A program made the translations under genes and the position numbers. The notes beneath the pieces were generated by a model, which made no database searches, had not been told where the DNA came from, and was given only the letters and a program-made list of their open reading frames with translations. A stretch of 22,730 bases of DNA from a virus. Shown here piece by piece: positions 5,107 through 10,501 of the stretch (the stretch's first letter is position 1; every line of letters begins with the position of its first letter). The stretch lies in the IMG/VR virus record IMGVR_UViG_3300035703_000422, positions 1 to 22,730 of that record. One strand, given 5' to 3'.

Positions 5107-6042
5107 TTAATAGACCAGAACGTGGTTCGCGTAGAACCGGGTATTGCCGAACGTGTAGACGGCGCCCGGATACACGATGCGCTCGATCTTCACGATCTTT
5201 TTGGGGCTACCAAGTTCGTTTACGACACTATCCCCAAGCTCGACGACCTTCGCGAGACCCATGTCCTTGTACTCGGGTACCGGGACGAGAGACGCATATC
5301 CCTTACCGAGGATGTACAGCGGATGCTCCTCGGATGCTTTGAGCGTAGAGCCGTCCTCAAAGGTGTACTGGTACATCGGGCGCTCGGTACGGACGATGAC
5401 CTCGGTCACCGGCACGGCGACATTGGTCTTGAGCTCCTCGCTGTACGTGAGGATGAAGTCGCCAACCTGCACTTCGCCGATCGCCCTGAGCGAGCCGTCG
5501 CCCATGAGGATCAAAGTGTCTGGCGTGAAGCAACAGAACGGGCATCCCGTGTACTCGGTCTCCAGAAAAACCCGCCAATACCGGGTGTTGCTGCCCGAAG
5601 TCGCGTTGACCTCGAACTCGGCGATTCGATATGCATTAAAGCCAGTACCTAGGACGAAATTCGCTGTATTGCCTGTCCCGCTGCCAGACGCGACCAGCGT
5701 GCTTCCGTCAACCTGACCGGCGCCAAATTGACCGGACACTCGGGTCCATGTCCACGAAGCGGACTGGGTGCAGGAGATGGAGCGCTGCGCAGTGCCGCCA
5801 GCTTCACCATAGAAATAATCCTGAATCAAAACGCGGCTGCTGGACGACGTACTGCCATCAGGGCTAAACGTACCGCCTGACGGCGGGACGCTTTTGCCAT
5901 AGAAATCACTAAACGCAATCGTCCCACTTGGGAATGTACCGCTGGAGTGTGATGTCCCGCGATACGAGTTCAAGTCATTGCCTCGACCAAACTCCGCGTT
6001 GATCTGCGACATGCTAATTGCGCCGGATGACTGCAATGGCAT
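5107..6042 (-). CDS. Phage structural protein with C-terminal Hint (hedgehog/intein-type) autoprocessing domain (311 aa)
   Basis: ATG at 6042 is preceded by AAGGT at seven bases. The N-terminus (SGAISMSQINAEFG, then LNSYRGT, then IAFSDFYGKS) is the short motif set common at the start of phage tail/minor structural proteins. A Ser/Gly/Thr-rich beta domain follows to about residue 165. From Cys171 the sequence fits a Hint fold: block A is CFTPDTLILMGDGS with IGEVQVGD; block B is LKASEEHPLYILGKG with His240; the C-terminal strands are VYTFGN and FYANHVLVY. The protein stops where canonical inteins carry HN plus a nucleophile, so N-terminal thioester formation or cleavage is possible but full splicing is not expected. 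A CPFCC cluster (Cys167, 170, 171) sits at the junction. The Hint call is strong; activity is inferred. Confidence 0.8.
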   Translation of the reverse strand: MPLQSSGAISMSQINAEFGRGNDLNSYRGTSHSSGTFPSGTIAFSDFYGKSVPPSGGTFSPDGSTSSSSRVLIQDYFYGEAGGTAQRSISCTQSASWTWTRVSGQFGAGQVDGSTLVASGSGTGNTANFVLGTGFNAYRIAEFEVNATSGSNTRYWRVFLETEYTGCPFCCFTPDTLILMGDGSLRAIGEVQVGDFILTYSEELKTNVAVPVTEVIVRTERPMYQYTFEDGSTLKASEEHPLYILGKGYASLVPVPEYKDMGLAKVVELGDSVVNELGSPKKIVKIERIVYPGAVYTFGNTRFYANHVLVY

Positions 6043-6051
6043 AACGCTACC

Positions 6052-6372
6052 TTACGACGCCCACGGGATCGGCTTGGTCTGCATTGCAGCCTCTTCGATC
6101 ATGCGGGCAATGACGTTAGCGATGTGCTCCTTTGCGTGAATCGTTGACCGGCTTTCGTCGATCCAAGCGACCACCTGCTCGCGCGACAACGACTCGAAAG
6201 GCGTGAAGGTCGCGGGAGTCGCATCGGGCAACCGCACCGTTACGGGAAGGTGGAACGTCACGTCTCCGTCAGCGCCCCACACGTTCACATCGATCTCGCG
6301 CACCACGTCAGACAGCGCGCCCTGTGAAGCGACGCGCAGACCGTTGATGGCGTACGTGTATGTGACAGCCAT
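6052..6372 (-). CDS. Small phage protein, paralogue of the upstream 118-aa protein (106 aa)
   Basis: A 106-residue protein with ATG preceded by GGAG at six bases, 12 bases after the preceding stop. It aligns end to end with its neighbour: MAVTYTYAINGLRVASQGAL against MALVYTYKINGARVVSQAGL, then DVVREIDVNV/DVVKELDVTV, LP-x-x-V-x-L-x-DA, a central F-x-x-F-x-SL-x-x-EQ, an AWI-x-ES block, HIA-x-V, and the ends KPIPWA/KPLPWA. The pattern matches small phage proteins I would place in a DUF7936-type family, of unknown function. The N-terminal half looks beta and the C-terminal half helical. The gene sits between fibre and Hint protein, so a fibre-assembly or virion accessory role is plausible but unproven. 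Confidence 0.7.
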   Translation of the reverse strand: MAVTYTYAINGLRVASQGALSDVVREIDVNVWGADGDVTFHLPVTVRLPDATPATFTPFESLSREQVVAWIDESRSTIHAKEHIANVIARMIEEAAMQTKPIPWAS

Positions 6373-6384
6373 GCGCGGCTCCGA

Positions 6385-6741
6385 TTAGCGAACCGGGGCG
6401 GGAGCGGCGGGCTCAGTCGGCGCGGGCGCCCACGGCAGCGGCTTGGATTCCATCGAGAGCTTCTCTACTTCCTTGGCGACCACGTAGGCAATGTGCCCCT
6501 TGATGCCGTCGAGCTGCGGGGACTCAGCGATCCACGCAATCATCTGCTCCTCAGTGAGGCTGTCGAACGCCGTGAAGCTGTTCGGGTCAGCGTCTTCGAG
6601 CTTAACCTGCGTCGGCAGGTCAAACTTCGCAGCGCCGTCCGTGCCAGTCACTGTGACGTCGAGTTCCTTGACCACGTCGGTCAAGCCAGCCTGCGACACC
6701 ACACGGGCGCCATTGATCTTGTAGGTATAAACAAGTGCCAT
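6385..6741 (-). CDS. Small phage protein, first of a tandem paralogous pair (118 aa)
   Basis: A 118-residue protein whose ATG follows GAGGAG at good spacing, ten bases after the fibre gene. It is the paralogue of the 106-residue protein immediately downstream and differs mainly by a C-terminal extension rich in Ala and Pro (APAPTEPAAPAPVR). That extension may be a flexible linker. The shared fold has an N-terminal YTYKINGARV strand, a middle LPTQVKLEDADP segment, and a helical LTEEQMIAWIAES segment. No catalytic motif or membrane segment is visible. The tandem arrangement shows a local duplication followed by divergence. Function unknown. Confidence 0.7.
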   Translation of the reverse strand: MALVYTYKINGARVVSQAGLTDVVKELDVTVTGTDGAAKFDLPTQVKLEDADPNSFTAFDSLTEEQMIAWIAESPQLDGIKGHIAYVVAKEVEKLSMESKPLPWAPAPTEPAAPAPVR

Positions 6742-6751
6742 GTCATTCTCC

Positions 6752-9700
6752 TCAGTGAAGTCTTGATTTCAACTCGGCGAGCTCGCGCTTGAGTGCGACC
6801 AGCTCTTTCGCAAGCTCCACAGCGGATGCCATGGCGGCGTTGCCGTACGAGACGGACAGGGTGCCCATTTCGTCCGCAGCCTTGGTGATCGCCTCAGGCA
6901 GAACCGCTTGCAGCGATTGCGCAGAGACACCGACCTGCGTAATTCTCTCGCCGTCCGTACGGTCGTAAATACCGACCTTTACCGCAGCCAGTCGCTCGAC
7001 AAAGCTTTCCGGCATTGGGCGCCAGTTCGTCTTTAGCCGCTCGTCCGAGTACGCCGTCACGTTGCCGGACGCTTTGATCGAGTAGGACATACACGATCCG
7101 AAACCGCCGTTGATCAGCACCAACATGCCGTGACTATCAAGGTTGCCAGCAACGCCGCCTGCAGACGGGTAAGACCAAGCCATACCGTAAAGATTTCCGG
7201 CGCTTGTTCCGTCTGCCGGCAGCTTGTAGCTGTCGCCCATAGCGAACACGCCTTGATAGCGGGTCGATGAGTAAACGCCAACGATGCCGTTGCCGTAGTT
7301 GTCGTCGATGTAGAAGTTGCCGTTCGCGCGCGTGGCGCGAGCTGCCGTGATGTTCCAGCTTCCGCTTGCTCCGGACCCTGTCAGCGATGGTGAGTAGCTG
7401 TTGTAGTTGCCGGCATCGAGAACGGTGCATTCGGTTCCGCCGCCATACGTGCTTCTGTAGACGTATAGATATCCACTTGCCCAGCGATATTTCCAACCGT
7501 AGCTGTTTGCGTGCCAGCCAACGGTGTTCCCATCGGTTCCGCACATCAATGAAACGTTAGTATTGGCAGCGTCAAACTCAAGACCACCCCAACCGTTGCG
7601 GCTGCCATTTATTCTCCACGGACCGTAGGACGCATTGTTTGGATAGAAGTGCGCGTTATTGATCGTAGAGTAAAGCCCGCTGGCGTTAGCGAATTCAATC
7701 CATTCGTTGCTGTAATTCCTACCGGTGGTAGTCCAGCCGGGGCTGATTGTTAGGCGACCGGACATTGTTCCGCCAGATAGCGGAACGGCGTAGCTGCTGT
7801 AGTTGGCGGCGTGCAAAACTTGATTGCCAGCCTGAGTAATTGCGCCGCCTGCGTTGAAGCTGGCTGGCGTACGAAGCGCACGGAGATCGCCGGTGACGCT
7901 CGTGAACGATTCGGTCGTAGTCTGCGTCGCAGACCAGTTGCCGACCATATCCATGACGTTGTCGTAAAAACTGGCATTGTGGATCTTACGAAGCACGATC
8001 GTGCCGTATTCCCACGTCGATCCTGACGTGCCGAATACGACGCAGAACCGTCCGTCCTTCACGCCGAGGCGAACTTCTTTCCCGCACTGCCCGATGACGT
8101 TCGCGCTGACGTTGTACCAGCTAGTACTCCAGTTGTGACCGCCAACGATGACTGTCGATACAGCGTTTCCGTTGTACTCGTAAATGTCGAACACCATGTG
8201 AATCATGCCGTAGTTCGACGTGGTTCCCGGCAGGTAGAAGATGACCATGCCGGTTGAGGTGCTGCCCGCGCTCCAGTTGACGTTTGGTCGCGCGATATTG
8301 TTGCCCTGCTCAAAGTGAGAGCGGAGCGTCATGTTGCCTTGGTTGCTGATCGCGGCGACGTTGCCGAGCGTTTCAACCTCTCTGAATATCCAACCGCGAT
8401 TCGCGGTGGAGTTCATCGTGAAGTATGTAGCCCAGTCAGCAGACACAGCGCCGTACGTGCCGAAGTTTACGGTCTGCGCGAAATACAATCCGTACGTCGG
8501 CGAAGTCGGCGATCCGCTGTACAGATTGATTCCGATACCGGCTGCTGACCCTGAGTTGACGGTGATTCCGCTTCCCGCGTATGCAGCCTGCGACAGCGTA
8601 ATCGCGCCGCTTTCAAGGGATAGAAGGGGCTGCGAGCCATACCCGTAGCGGTCGAAAACAAAACGACTCGCGCTGAAGGTATGTGTTCCGCTGCTCGACG
8701 TCGAGATCGACGACCACGAATTTACGTTGCCAACCGTGCCGCCGTAGTAGATCGTCCCCGTAAGGTGCGTCGTTCCCTGCACACCAAGGTTGGCGTCTGT
8801 GTTGGTCGAGCCGCCAGCGGTAATTTGCGATGCCCGAATTGCGCCACTTACTGTGCCGCCGCTCAGCGGGAGTGCGTAGCTGCTGTAGTTACCAGCATGA
8901 AGCAGCGTATTGGAGCCGCCTTGGAGGAGTACCCCATCGCCACGAATGACAAAGTTGATGTCACCGGAGTCGGCGTTGCCGTCCTTAAAGACGATGGATT
9001 CCCCTCCAGACGTCGCAATGACAAGTCCGGCAGCACCGGTTCCGGTGTTGGCGAGGCTCTTGATGAACCCGCGCATCGAGTTCGCGCCGTCGCTGAACGT
9101 CAGCTGGTTCGCGGAACGGAATTCGACCTGCCCTGTGAGTTGACCGCCGCTTAATGGCAAAGCGTAGCCGCTGTAGTTCGCGCTGTGCAGCACCTGCTTG
9201 AACGAGTTCCACGTGTTGCTGTCCGTCTTATTGCGGAATTCAAATGTCCCGCCGTAAGTGACGTGCAGCTGCCACGGACCGACAGAGCCTCCTGCGTTGA
9301 ACGTCAGAATCGCGCTGCTATCACCCGTGTTATTACGGGTATAAAAGCCGTTCGACGTTGCAGAGTCCTGATTCGCCTGTGCGACAGACCCGCGATAGAT
9401 CATCCAGTCGGCGTTATTGGAGAGGTTACTCGCAGTTGCGGCGTTGCCGGTAATAGAGATTCCCCACGCCCCGCTCGCGCCGCTACCCGTAAGCGACGGG
9501 GAGTACGAGGTGTAGTTGCCGGCGTGGAGTACTTGGTTACCGCCTTGCTGAAGCGAGCCGCTAGAGACGTTTACGGCGCTACCGGAGACTTGCAGATTCG
9601 CGCTTGACGAGCCGAGATTTATGGCTGCGTAGCTTCCCGCATCACGGTCGTAGGCATACACAAAGCCTTGACCGGCAGATATGCCGATCTCAAGAGCAAG

Positions 9701-10501
9701 ACCGGTAGCAGAGCCTGTTGCGGGCGAGTTGTACCAGCCGCGAGCACGAATCTGACCTAGACTGTTGAGTTGATTTGCGGCGTTGTACGGCGTGTAGCCG
9801 AGCGCAGTCGTGACGTCAGACGAGCTCAGCGTGACCGCCCCGGTGCGCGTATTGAAGCTCGTTACGCCGCCGTCGATCTGAATGTTCCCAGAGCCGAGCA
9901 GCGAGTTTCCGTTCACCGTCTTAATGGACGTGCCGGAGACAAGCGTCGTCTGGTACGTGCTCGCTGCCGTGGAGCTCGTCAGGTACGGAGACAGCGCCGA
10001 GCTGGTGATGTATCCGCTGTCGTTCGTGAACGAACTGACGTTCGTGGGCGCCGTGTAGCTGAACACGCCGGTCGTGCTGTTGTACGACAGCGAACCTGAC
10101 GCACTGACGGAGCTCCGGGCACGCGCGGTCGTGAAGTACAGATTCGTACTGCCTTCAGTCACCGCATCGGTGCTGCCCGGGGAAGCCGAGATCTCCACGT
10201 ACGCCGAGCCTGACCATCGATAGGTCTTGTTCGTGTCGAGTACGACGTAGATCTTTCCTGTCTCGCCCGTTCCCGGGAGTGACAGGAAGTTCGCAGCCTC
10301 CACAACATCGTCGACATAGGACGGCAGCTGTGTAGATGGCACTTTACCGGAGCCATCCAACGAGGCGTAGCCACCAGCCACGCCCTTATTCGAGGCGGAC
10401 TCCTTCTGTCCCAGCTCTGTATTGAGATTGCTGAAGTTGCTATCAACCTCAGCATTGGACAGCGGTGAACCCTTTTCGGACCGGAGAGTAATGCTTGCCA
10501 T
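6752..10501 (-). CDS. Tail fibre / tail spike with C-terminal S74 intramolecular chaperone (1249 aa)
   Basis: A 1249-residue protein starting at an ATG with AGGGA six bases upstream. The N-terminus (ITLRSEKGSPLSNAEVDSNF, then GYASLDGSGKVPSTQLPSYV, then GKIYVVLDTNKTYRWSG) is a conserved virion-attachment region of phage fibres. The body contains about five spaced copies of LHAGNYSSYALPLSGG-like repeats, typical of trimeric fibre shafts, and the motif GNSLLGSGNIQ. The C-terminus holds a peptidase S74 domain: AYSDERLKTNW around Ser1152, a GVSAQSLQAVLPEAI segment, and a final coiled coil (ELVALKRELAELKSRLH). In this family the domain trimerises the fibre and then cuts itself off at the conserved Ser, which here would release about 98 residues. 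It is likely the main adhesin. Confidence 0.92.
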   Translation of the reverse strand: MASITLRSEKGSPLSNAEVDSNFSNLNTELGQKESASNKGVAGGYASLDGSGKVPSTQLPSYVDDVVEAANFLSLPGTGETGKIYVVLDTNKTYRWSGSAYVEISASPGSTDAVTEGSTNLYFTTARARSSVSASGSLSYNSTTGVFSYTAPTNVSSFTNDSGYITSSALSPYLTSSTAASTYQTTLVSGTSIKTVNGNSLLGSGNIQIDGGVTSFNTRTGAVTLSSSDVTTALGYTPYNAANQLNSLGQIRARGWYNSPATGSATGLALEIGISAGQGFVYAYDRDAGSYAAINLGSSSANLQVSGSAVNVSSGSLQQGGNQVLHAGNYTSYSPSLTGSGASGAWGISITGNAATASNLSNNADWMIYRGSVAQANQDSATSNGFYTRNNTGDSSAILTFNAGGSVGPWQLHVTYGGTFEFRNKTDSNTWNSFKQVLHSANYSGYALPLSGGQLTGQVEFRSANQLTFSDGANSMRGFIKSLANTGTGAAGLVIATSGGESIVFKDGNADSGDINFVIRGDGVLLQGGSNTLLHAGNYSSYALPLSGGTVSGAIRASQITAGGSTNTDANLGVQGTTHLTGTIYYGGTVGNVNSWSSISTSSSGTHTFSASRFVFDRYGYGSQPLLSLESGAITLSQAAYAGSGITVNSGSAAGIGINLYSGSPTSPTYGLYFAQTVNFGTYGAVSADWATYFTMNSTANRGWIFREVETLGNVAAISNQGNMTLRSHFEQGNNIARPNVNWSAGSTSTGMVIFYLPGTTSNYGMIHMVFDIYEYNGNAVSTVIVGGHNWSTSWYNVSANVIGQCGKEVRLGVKDGRFCVVFGTSGSTWEYGTIVLRKIHNASFYDNVMDMVGNWSATQTTTESFTSVTGDLRALRTPASFNAGGAITQAGNQVLHAANYSSYAVPLSGGTMSGRLTISPGWTTTGRNYSNEWIEFANASGLYSTINNAHFYPNNASYGPWRINGSRNGWGGLEFDAANTNVSLMCGTDGNTVGWHANSYGWKYRWASGYLYVYRSTYGGGTECTVLDAGNYNSYSPSLTGSGASGSWNITAARATRANGNFYIDDNYGNGIVGVYSSTRYQGVFAMGDSYKLPADGTSAGNLYGMAWSYPSAGGVAGNLDSHGMLVLINGGFGSCMSYSIKASGNVTAYSDERLKTNWRPMPESFVERLAAVKVGIYDRTDGERITQVGVSAQSLQAVLPEAITKAADEMGTLSVSYGNAAMASAVELAKELVALKRELAELKSRLH

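Follow-up and report, generated by a model that had tools for sequence, protein, structure and literature searches.

The window analyzed here, a 22,730-base IMG/VR virus record, encodes on its minus strand a terminase, a portal-type protein (phrog_332/phrog_1216), a major head protein, an endolysin and tail proteins. On this strand, too, positions 5107–6042 hold an open reading frame of 311 amino acids, running from ATG to TAA and with full-length homologues in L002–L009 and L018, in which a putative fibre-tip module, a β-sandwich and a Hint domain follow one another. The N-terminal module (residues 1–50, SSGAISMSQINAEFGRGNDLN...FSDFYGK; 5893–6042) is shared with Gp38-type adhesin proteins and was modelled with low confidence (pLDDT 43–56), and the middle β-sandwich (residues about 56–165; 5548–5877), assigned from the strands of an AlphaFold2 model, is the most variable part of the protein. 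A CPFC motif (residues 167–170; 5533–5544), whose cysteines are conserved in relatives, abuts the candidate nucleophile Cys171 (block A; codon at 5530–5532), the first of the 141 residues of the Hint domain (residues 171–311; 5110–5532). Block B is represented by S237-E-E-H240 (5323–5334), and the protein ends in FYANHVLVY (residues 303–311; 5110–5136), its last residue occupying the position of the penultimate His of inteins and the TAA codon (5107–5109) that of their terminal Asn. All of the elements named in a preliminary description of this locus, namely the reading frame at 5107–6042 on the minus strand, Cys171 (CFTPDTLILMGDGS), VGD, S237-E-E-H240-P and the final FYANHVLVY followed by a stop, were found.

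Upstream, likewise on the minus strand, lies a tail-fibre gene of 1249 amino acids (6752–10501; phrog_25788, tail fibre) with a C-terminal Peptidase_S74 chaperone (residues 1152–1205; PF13884, 36.5 bits). Between this gene and the Hint-bearing reading frame are two DUF7936 genes, at 6052–6372 (PF25590, 44.8 bits) and 6385–6741 (PF25590, 47.6 bits), both minus strand. The two are tandem DUF7936/phrog_7802 paralogues with a possible link to fibre-tip assembly.

Residues 171–311 are a Hint domain. Searched alone, the window protein passed the TIGR01445 intein_Nterm model over residues 171–243 (31.3 bits against a cut-off of 24.5) and stayed below the cut-off of the Pfam Hint models (PF01079, 23.8 bits against 29.7), which were cleared by its relatives L029 and L026 (34.0 and 30.1 bits). 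As Pfam and PDB searches with the single sequence gave only weak matches, family profiles were used instead. The profile built from 18 members for structure comparison matched 6y75 (Tetrahymena BIL2, 2.4e-13), 2lwy (Clostridium BIL4, 4.8e-10), the gp41-1 intein (5e-9) and hedgehog (1at0, 1e-3). AlphaFold2 modelled the domain with pLDDT values mostly between 87 and 97 (means of 10-residue blocks, two of which fell to 70 and 83), and a Foldseek search with this model returned BIL2 (6y75) as the best match (TM 0.83 to the target, E 2e-11), the top matches all being Hint domains of BIL2, BIL4, inteins and hedgehog (TM 0.71). Profile searches, by TIGR01445 and the family profile, and structure prediction, by AlphaFold2 and Foldseek, thus arrived at the same fold. 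An AXH fold (PF08517), which scored below its cut-off over the same residues, was rejected, given that the ataxin AXH profile matches were far weaker than those to BILs and that the fold search led to Hint domains.

Next, we considered which catalytic residues the family retains. Across 18 members with 41–93% identity to the window protein, the block-A Cys1 (C171 in the window), the block-B [ST]xxH motif (S237/H240 in the window, with T in one member) and a terminal Tyr as the very last residue were each kept in 18/18. The IMG/VR relatives define a subfamily signature of Cys(-1)-Cys1-F-T, SxxH, invariant YK and VY, and FYANGxLVY followed by the stop. The C-terminal His-Asn, the +1 Cys/Ser/Thr and the C-extein of inteins are absent from the window protein, in which Tyr stands in place of the His; the His-Asn found at the C-terminal end of A-type BIL Hints is absent from both the window protein and the 18-member alignment. 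Scanning the collection for FYANGxLV[HY], with the downstream bases left unspecified, gave at least 81 matches, 71 of them distinct among those listed. Among the matches listed, eight of the ten Tyr-type ends (FYANGxLVY) stop at once and two run on for four residues, and all 71 His-type ends (FYANGxLVH) continue, 64 with Asn and seven with Ser. Both TAA and TGA follow the terminal Tyr in the family. The recurrence of a stop after Tyr across the family and the scan marks the missing Asn as a conserved property rather than decay or an assembly error. The profiles, the model and the conservation in 18 members together bear out the preliminary reading of a C-terminal Hint with thioester-forming residues but without a splicing end. 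In two further proteins (L199:5347-7035(-) and L225), a degenerate Hint-like region is followed by a second Hint (CHTYPYCCFSEDTL) that ends in FYANGILVYDEQK, four residues past the Tyr.

C170 directly precedes Cys171, and C167, C170 and C171 make up a conserved CPxC-C cluster that was absent from the preliminary description. Cys(-1) is present in 17/17 full-length relatives examined and Cys(-4) in 15/17, CPxC stands ahead of Cys1 in most of the 18 aligned members, and the Cys(-4)/Cys(-1) cluster supplies the sole cysteines of several family proteins. Its place beside the nucleophile suggests gating by redox state or metal; a literature search combining all terms for redox control of inteins by CxxC motifs returned no match. 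Block F of the window protein is altered (VYTF-GNTR-FYAN), lacking both the usual VYDL aspartate and the block-F histidine. At the position equivalent to hedgehog D46, a by-eye alignment places E220 in the window and E, D, N or T across the family, a variability that does not point to a base dedicated to activating a hydroxyl.

The N-terminal module (consensus SSGxISMSQINAEFGRGNDLN...FSDFYGK) also occurs in relatives with other C-termini, which are of Gp38 adhesin, glycine-rich, short β or cysteine-rich type. The Gp38 adhesin domain PF05268 was detected on this module in L048 (40.3 bits) and L058 (25.8 bits; cut-off 25), and L048 additionally matches phrog_2056, 'host specificity'; the Pfam search found no PF05268 match in the window protein. 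In 12 loci, genes with the N-module begin 0–16 bases downstream of a fibre gene tipped with S74, as recognized by sequence motif. Genes of unrelated phages that encode the Tyr-ending Hint (Hint-Tyr) mostly lie 0–24 bases after fibre genes or other long open reading frames: a fibre gene (collagen-like and/or S74, by phrog and Pfam matches) is close upstream in L026, L031, L178 and L213, and a long reading frame of mostly unknown family in L025, L033, L155, L205 and L236. Exceptions are L029, which encodes a subtilase, and L023, where the gene adjoins a tape measure gene. The window has the order fibre gene, two DUF7936 genes and Hint gene; as the DUF7936 genes part the fibre from the Hint gene, a tip location is deduced from the relatives. 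In gp38 of the T2/S16 type, the N-terminus caps the tip of the gp37 fibre and the C-terminal domain binds the receptor (PMC6851490; PMC12892980). By this comparison of sequences and gene order, the window protein is best placed as a tip protein of the Gp38 slot whose C-terminal adhesin domain appears to have been swapped for the sandwich and Hint. The preliminary assignment to a phage tail protein stands, but the slot of the relatives suggests a fibre-tip position in place of a generic structural role in a short tail. Three N-module genes (L068, L070 and L071) encode 82-residue fibre-tip-slot proteins with tails of alternating cysteines (CACDCVCDCACAC), and L069:2492-3313 carries a similar cysteine tail followed by a Hint of another lineage.

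Hints of four lineages occur on this type of N-module. Besides the Tyr-stop lineage, these are a VHSE-ending lineage ('CIYENIP...TxDHP...FYANGVLVHSE'; L176, L193, L194, L234, L242 and L246), located directly after S74-type or similar fibres, the Hint of L001 (Providencia phage PSTNGR1; end '...NGYLVSS...') and that of L069 (end '...DNYAVTGW...'). All four keep Cys1 and [ST]xxH. His-Asn was found in 0/14 distinct proteins of the four lineages, compared with 64/81 FYANG-type ends among the matches listed, a contrast rather than a test because the two sets were sampled differently. Other Hints of unusual layout were also encountered. An environmental phage protein (L187:1588-3915(-)) contains two complete tandem Hints, each ending in HN, and L177:1020-2897(-) contains one; in both proteins a degenerate Hint-like stretch comes first. 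The phage Hints of L080:2020-6642 and L072:5803-6684 lack HN and have a long extension after NG[FY]xTTSI, the L080 protein being 1541 amino acids long and cyanophage-like in appearance.

Pairwise dN/dS values for the Hint were 0.008/0.516 (window–L002), 0.003/0.455 (window–L008), 0.003/0.405 (window–L009) and 0.334/1.807 (window–L018). The domain is under strong purifying selection and is maintained, not decayed. Between the window and L009, the Hint is 99% identical and the middle domain 47% identical at the amino acid level, the similarity dropping near the CPxC junction; the corresponding figures for L006 and L018 are 97% and 54%. This contrast indicates that the Hint moves as a unit, independently of the part preceding it. 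Several mutually unrelated N-terminal modules are joined to Hint-Tyr, including a siphovirus tail protein (L023, phrog_2048), a subtilase (L029, PF00082), 'INVAGVWK' repeats (L032, L033 and L236) and several small virion-like proteins. In L029:4384-6426, from an environmental virus, the S8 subtilase is fused to Hint-Tyr through a cysteine-rich linker (CEYCCVAANCC). Two phage contigs each carry two different Hint-Tyr proteins: L178 (10262-11956 and 2197-2961, minus strand) and L205 (1984-3066 and 12634-13512, plus strand).

A first scan of genome contigs returned no family member, and a second returned one true member (L084) together with distant Hints, many of polymorphic-toxin type. L084 is a Hint-Tyr gene on a Desulfuromonadales MAG contig almost identical to the viral contig L025, and probably represents phage DNA that was assigned to the MAG during binning. 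Together, these data describe a phage-borne, C-terminal Hint subfamily, non-splicing as judged by its residues, that recurs in environmental phages. In view of this recurrence, the word 'uncommon', applied in the preliminary description to such a way of maturing or cross-linking a short tail, needs qualifying.

In canonical Hint chemistry, Cys1 and block B bring about the N–S acyl shift, and the remaining steps depend on the terminal Asn together with a +1 nucleophile (PMC7765530; PMC8616854). Only the residues for the first half are present here, so that cleavage or acyl transfer at the Cys170–Cys171 bond is expected if the Hint is active. We therefore lean, by a modest degree, toward a fibre-tip protein of the Gp38 slot whose Hint would be built for N-terminal thioester chemistry alone, leading to cleavage or acyl transfer. 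For this scheme we infer the fibre-tip location, the formation of the thioester, its resolution and the gating. The likely role of the N-terminal module is to cap the fibre matured by S74. Cys171, aided by S237/H240, would shift the Cys170–Cys171 peptide bond to a side-chain thioester, which, lacking a terminal Asn and a +1 nucleophile, could be resolved only by an external nucleophile such as water or a thiol. Resolution would free the 141-residue Hint and leave residues 1–170 (ending ...CPFC) either free or bonded to the attacking group, with the CPxC-C cluster probably gating Cys171 via its redox state or a metal. The outcome may be release of the Hint, cross-linking within the virion or covalent attachment to the host; a CPxC thiolactone remaining on the N-terminal part once the Hint is released was also considered. 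Transfer to an amine has a precedent in Tetrahymena BIL2, a zinc-activated Hint that attaches the ubiquitin-like domain on its N-terminal side to the side chains of lysines (PMC8616854), although BIL2 keeps its Asn. The receptor-binding nature of the slot, and the interchange of the Hint with adhesin domains there, speak for an exposed function. Against the thioester reading, a purely structural Hint would likewise be expected to conserve its fold residues. The N-terminal thioesters of Hints are usually minor equilibrium species that hydrolyse; this tendency and the altered block F are grounds for caution.

The competing accounts rank in the order of assembly-time autocleavage, host-directed covalent attachment level with a catalytically silent Hint, and cross-linking within the virion. 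Autocleavage and covalent attachment to the host are specific outcomes of the explanation that we prefer, and the sequence does not separate them. In the former, which we advance tentatively as a possible course of events, the Hint would be a folding or assembly aid that is removed in the reducing cytoplasm through attack by water or a thiol, such that virions hold residues 1–170 only. N-side cleavage is the default of Hints without Asn, as in B-type BILs (PMC7765530), the neighboring fibre ends in an S74 chaperone, and T4 gp38, from the same slot, acts as an assembly factor and leaves once assembly is complete (PMC12892980). This course would, however, leave the conserved CPxC-C cluster and the strict Tyr end unexplained, and the Hint takes the place of the receptor-binding domains of relatives.

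In the account of covalent attachment, the thioester would form or persist at the fibre tip of the virion until attacked by a host-surface amine or hydroxyl, leaving the phage part bonded to the receptor as the Hint departs. The fibre-tip slot is shared with Gp38 receptor-binding domains, the Hint is most C-terminal, where relatives bear the adhesin domain, BIL2 hands its N-terminal domain to lysines (PMC8616854), and covalent binding of host proteins is known from bacterial thioester-domain adhesins (PMC4450167). We nonetheless regard attachment of this kind as unlikely, given the generally minor and hydrolysed state of Hint thioesters, the absence of any sign of host specificity or of a protected thioester, and a variable middle domain that could be the receptor binder instead. 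A more elaborate form, in which a redox- or metal-gated tip Hint is displaced when a cell-surface nucleophile attacks the Cys171 thioester, making adsorption chemically irreversible, appears doubtful.

Alternatively, catalysis may have been lost and the Hint may persist as a stable β-domain, for example for receptor binding, an account to which we assign the same low standing as covalent attachment to the host. The missing block-F catalytic residues and splicing end are consistent with it, as is the loss of His-Asn in at least four lineages on this type of N-module. A scaffold, however, need not retain a nucleophile, yet Cys1 and [ST]xxH are kept in 18/18, C170 is invariant and Cys1 and [ST]xxH persist in the three other lineages; its surfaces, moreover, should vary more than dN/dS suggests. 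Improbable, in our assessment, is a cross-link that would lock the tip by transferring residues 1–170 to a neighboring virion protein, such as the fibre or DUF7936, at one of its amines or thiols; the preliminary description had raised cross-linking to a partner in general terms. DUF7936 lies between the fibre and tip genes in the window, in L054 and L057 (a single small gene each) and in other close relatives, and the isopeptide chemistry of BIL2 offers a precedent (PMC8616854), but upstream of Hint-Tyr genes in unrelated phages no neighbor of DUF7936 size is present, so that no common partner is apparent. Finally, a truncated or split intein, with Asn and C-extein encoded elsewhere or lost through sequencing or assembly error, was rejected as highly improbable despite a C-terminus resembling block G, since the last position is Tyr rather than His, the stop falls at the same residue in 18/18 members from many metagenomes with both TAA and TGA, and ten relative contigs scanned held no separate C-intein and only the same full-length Hint type.

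Phage adsorption is usually viewed as non-covalent binding followed by rearrangement of the tail. A conserved, exchangeable Hint that has lost the residues for splicing and kept those for thioester formation, located in a receptor-binding slot, suggests that some phages process their own tip or attach it covalently, and protein ligation by thioester chemistry may find a natural switch in the CPxC-C cluster. In the literature searched, which comprised open-access full text only, Hints on fibre-tip proteins are not described, those reported from phages belonging to ribonucleotide reductase, a helicase and terminases. Proteins of uncultured phages already bear automated annotations of the kind 'Hint domain containing protein'.

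Among known systems, the thioester-domain (TED) adhesins of Gram-positive bacteria share with the proposed mechanism the principle of thioester-based covalent binding (PMC4450167), as an analogy only, since their fold is unrelated and their thioester links Cys and Gln side chains. Gp38 adhesins of the T2/S16 type share the slot after the distal fibre, and a close N-module bears PF05268 in relatives; the window protein, however, lacks the Gp38 polyglycine domain, and the comparison with gp38 is based on slot and relatives rather than on a sequence match to its attachment domain. Hedgehog proteins (1AT0, 6TYY) also have a C-terminal Hint that starts with CFTP and lacks the Asn, and they transfer their N-terminal part to cholesterol, whereas the window protein ends with the Hint and has no sterol-recognition region, the position equivalent to D46 varies in the by-eye alignment and the profile match is weak (1e-3). 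BILs (C. thermocellum BIL4, 2LWY; A- and B-type) resemble the window Hint in being non-splicing and in their variable, non-essential-enzyme contexts. A-type BILs cleave, and B-type BILs, which lack the intein C-terminal motif, cleave on the N-terminal side (PMC7765530). A-type members nevertheless have HN, known BILs are found in bacterial proteins rather than phage tip proteins, and the window Hint, in which the intein C-terminal motif is absent, is altered in block F as well. The closest solved structure by both profile and fold is BIL2 of Tetrahymena BUBL1 (PDB 6Y75, 6TMM), which similarly places a Cys1 Hint after an independent N-terminal domain; BIL2 lies between two ubiquitin-like domains and retains its terminal Asn (N143), whereas the window protein joins its Hint to a tail protein and ends at Tyr.
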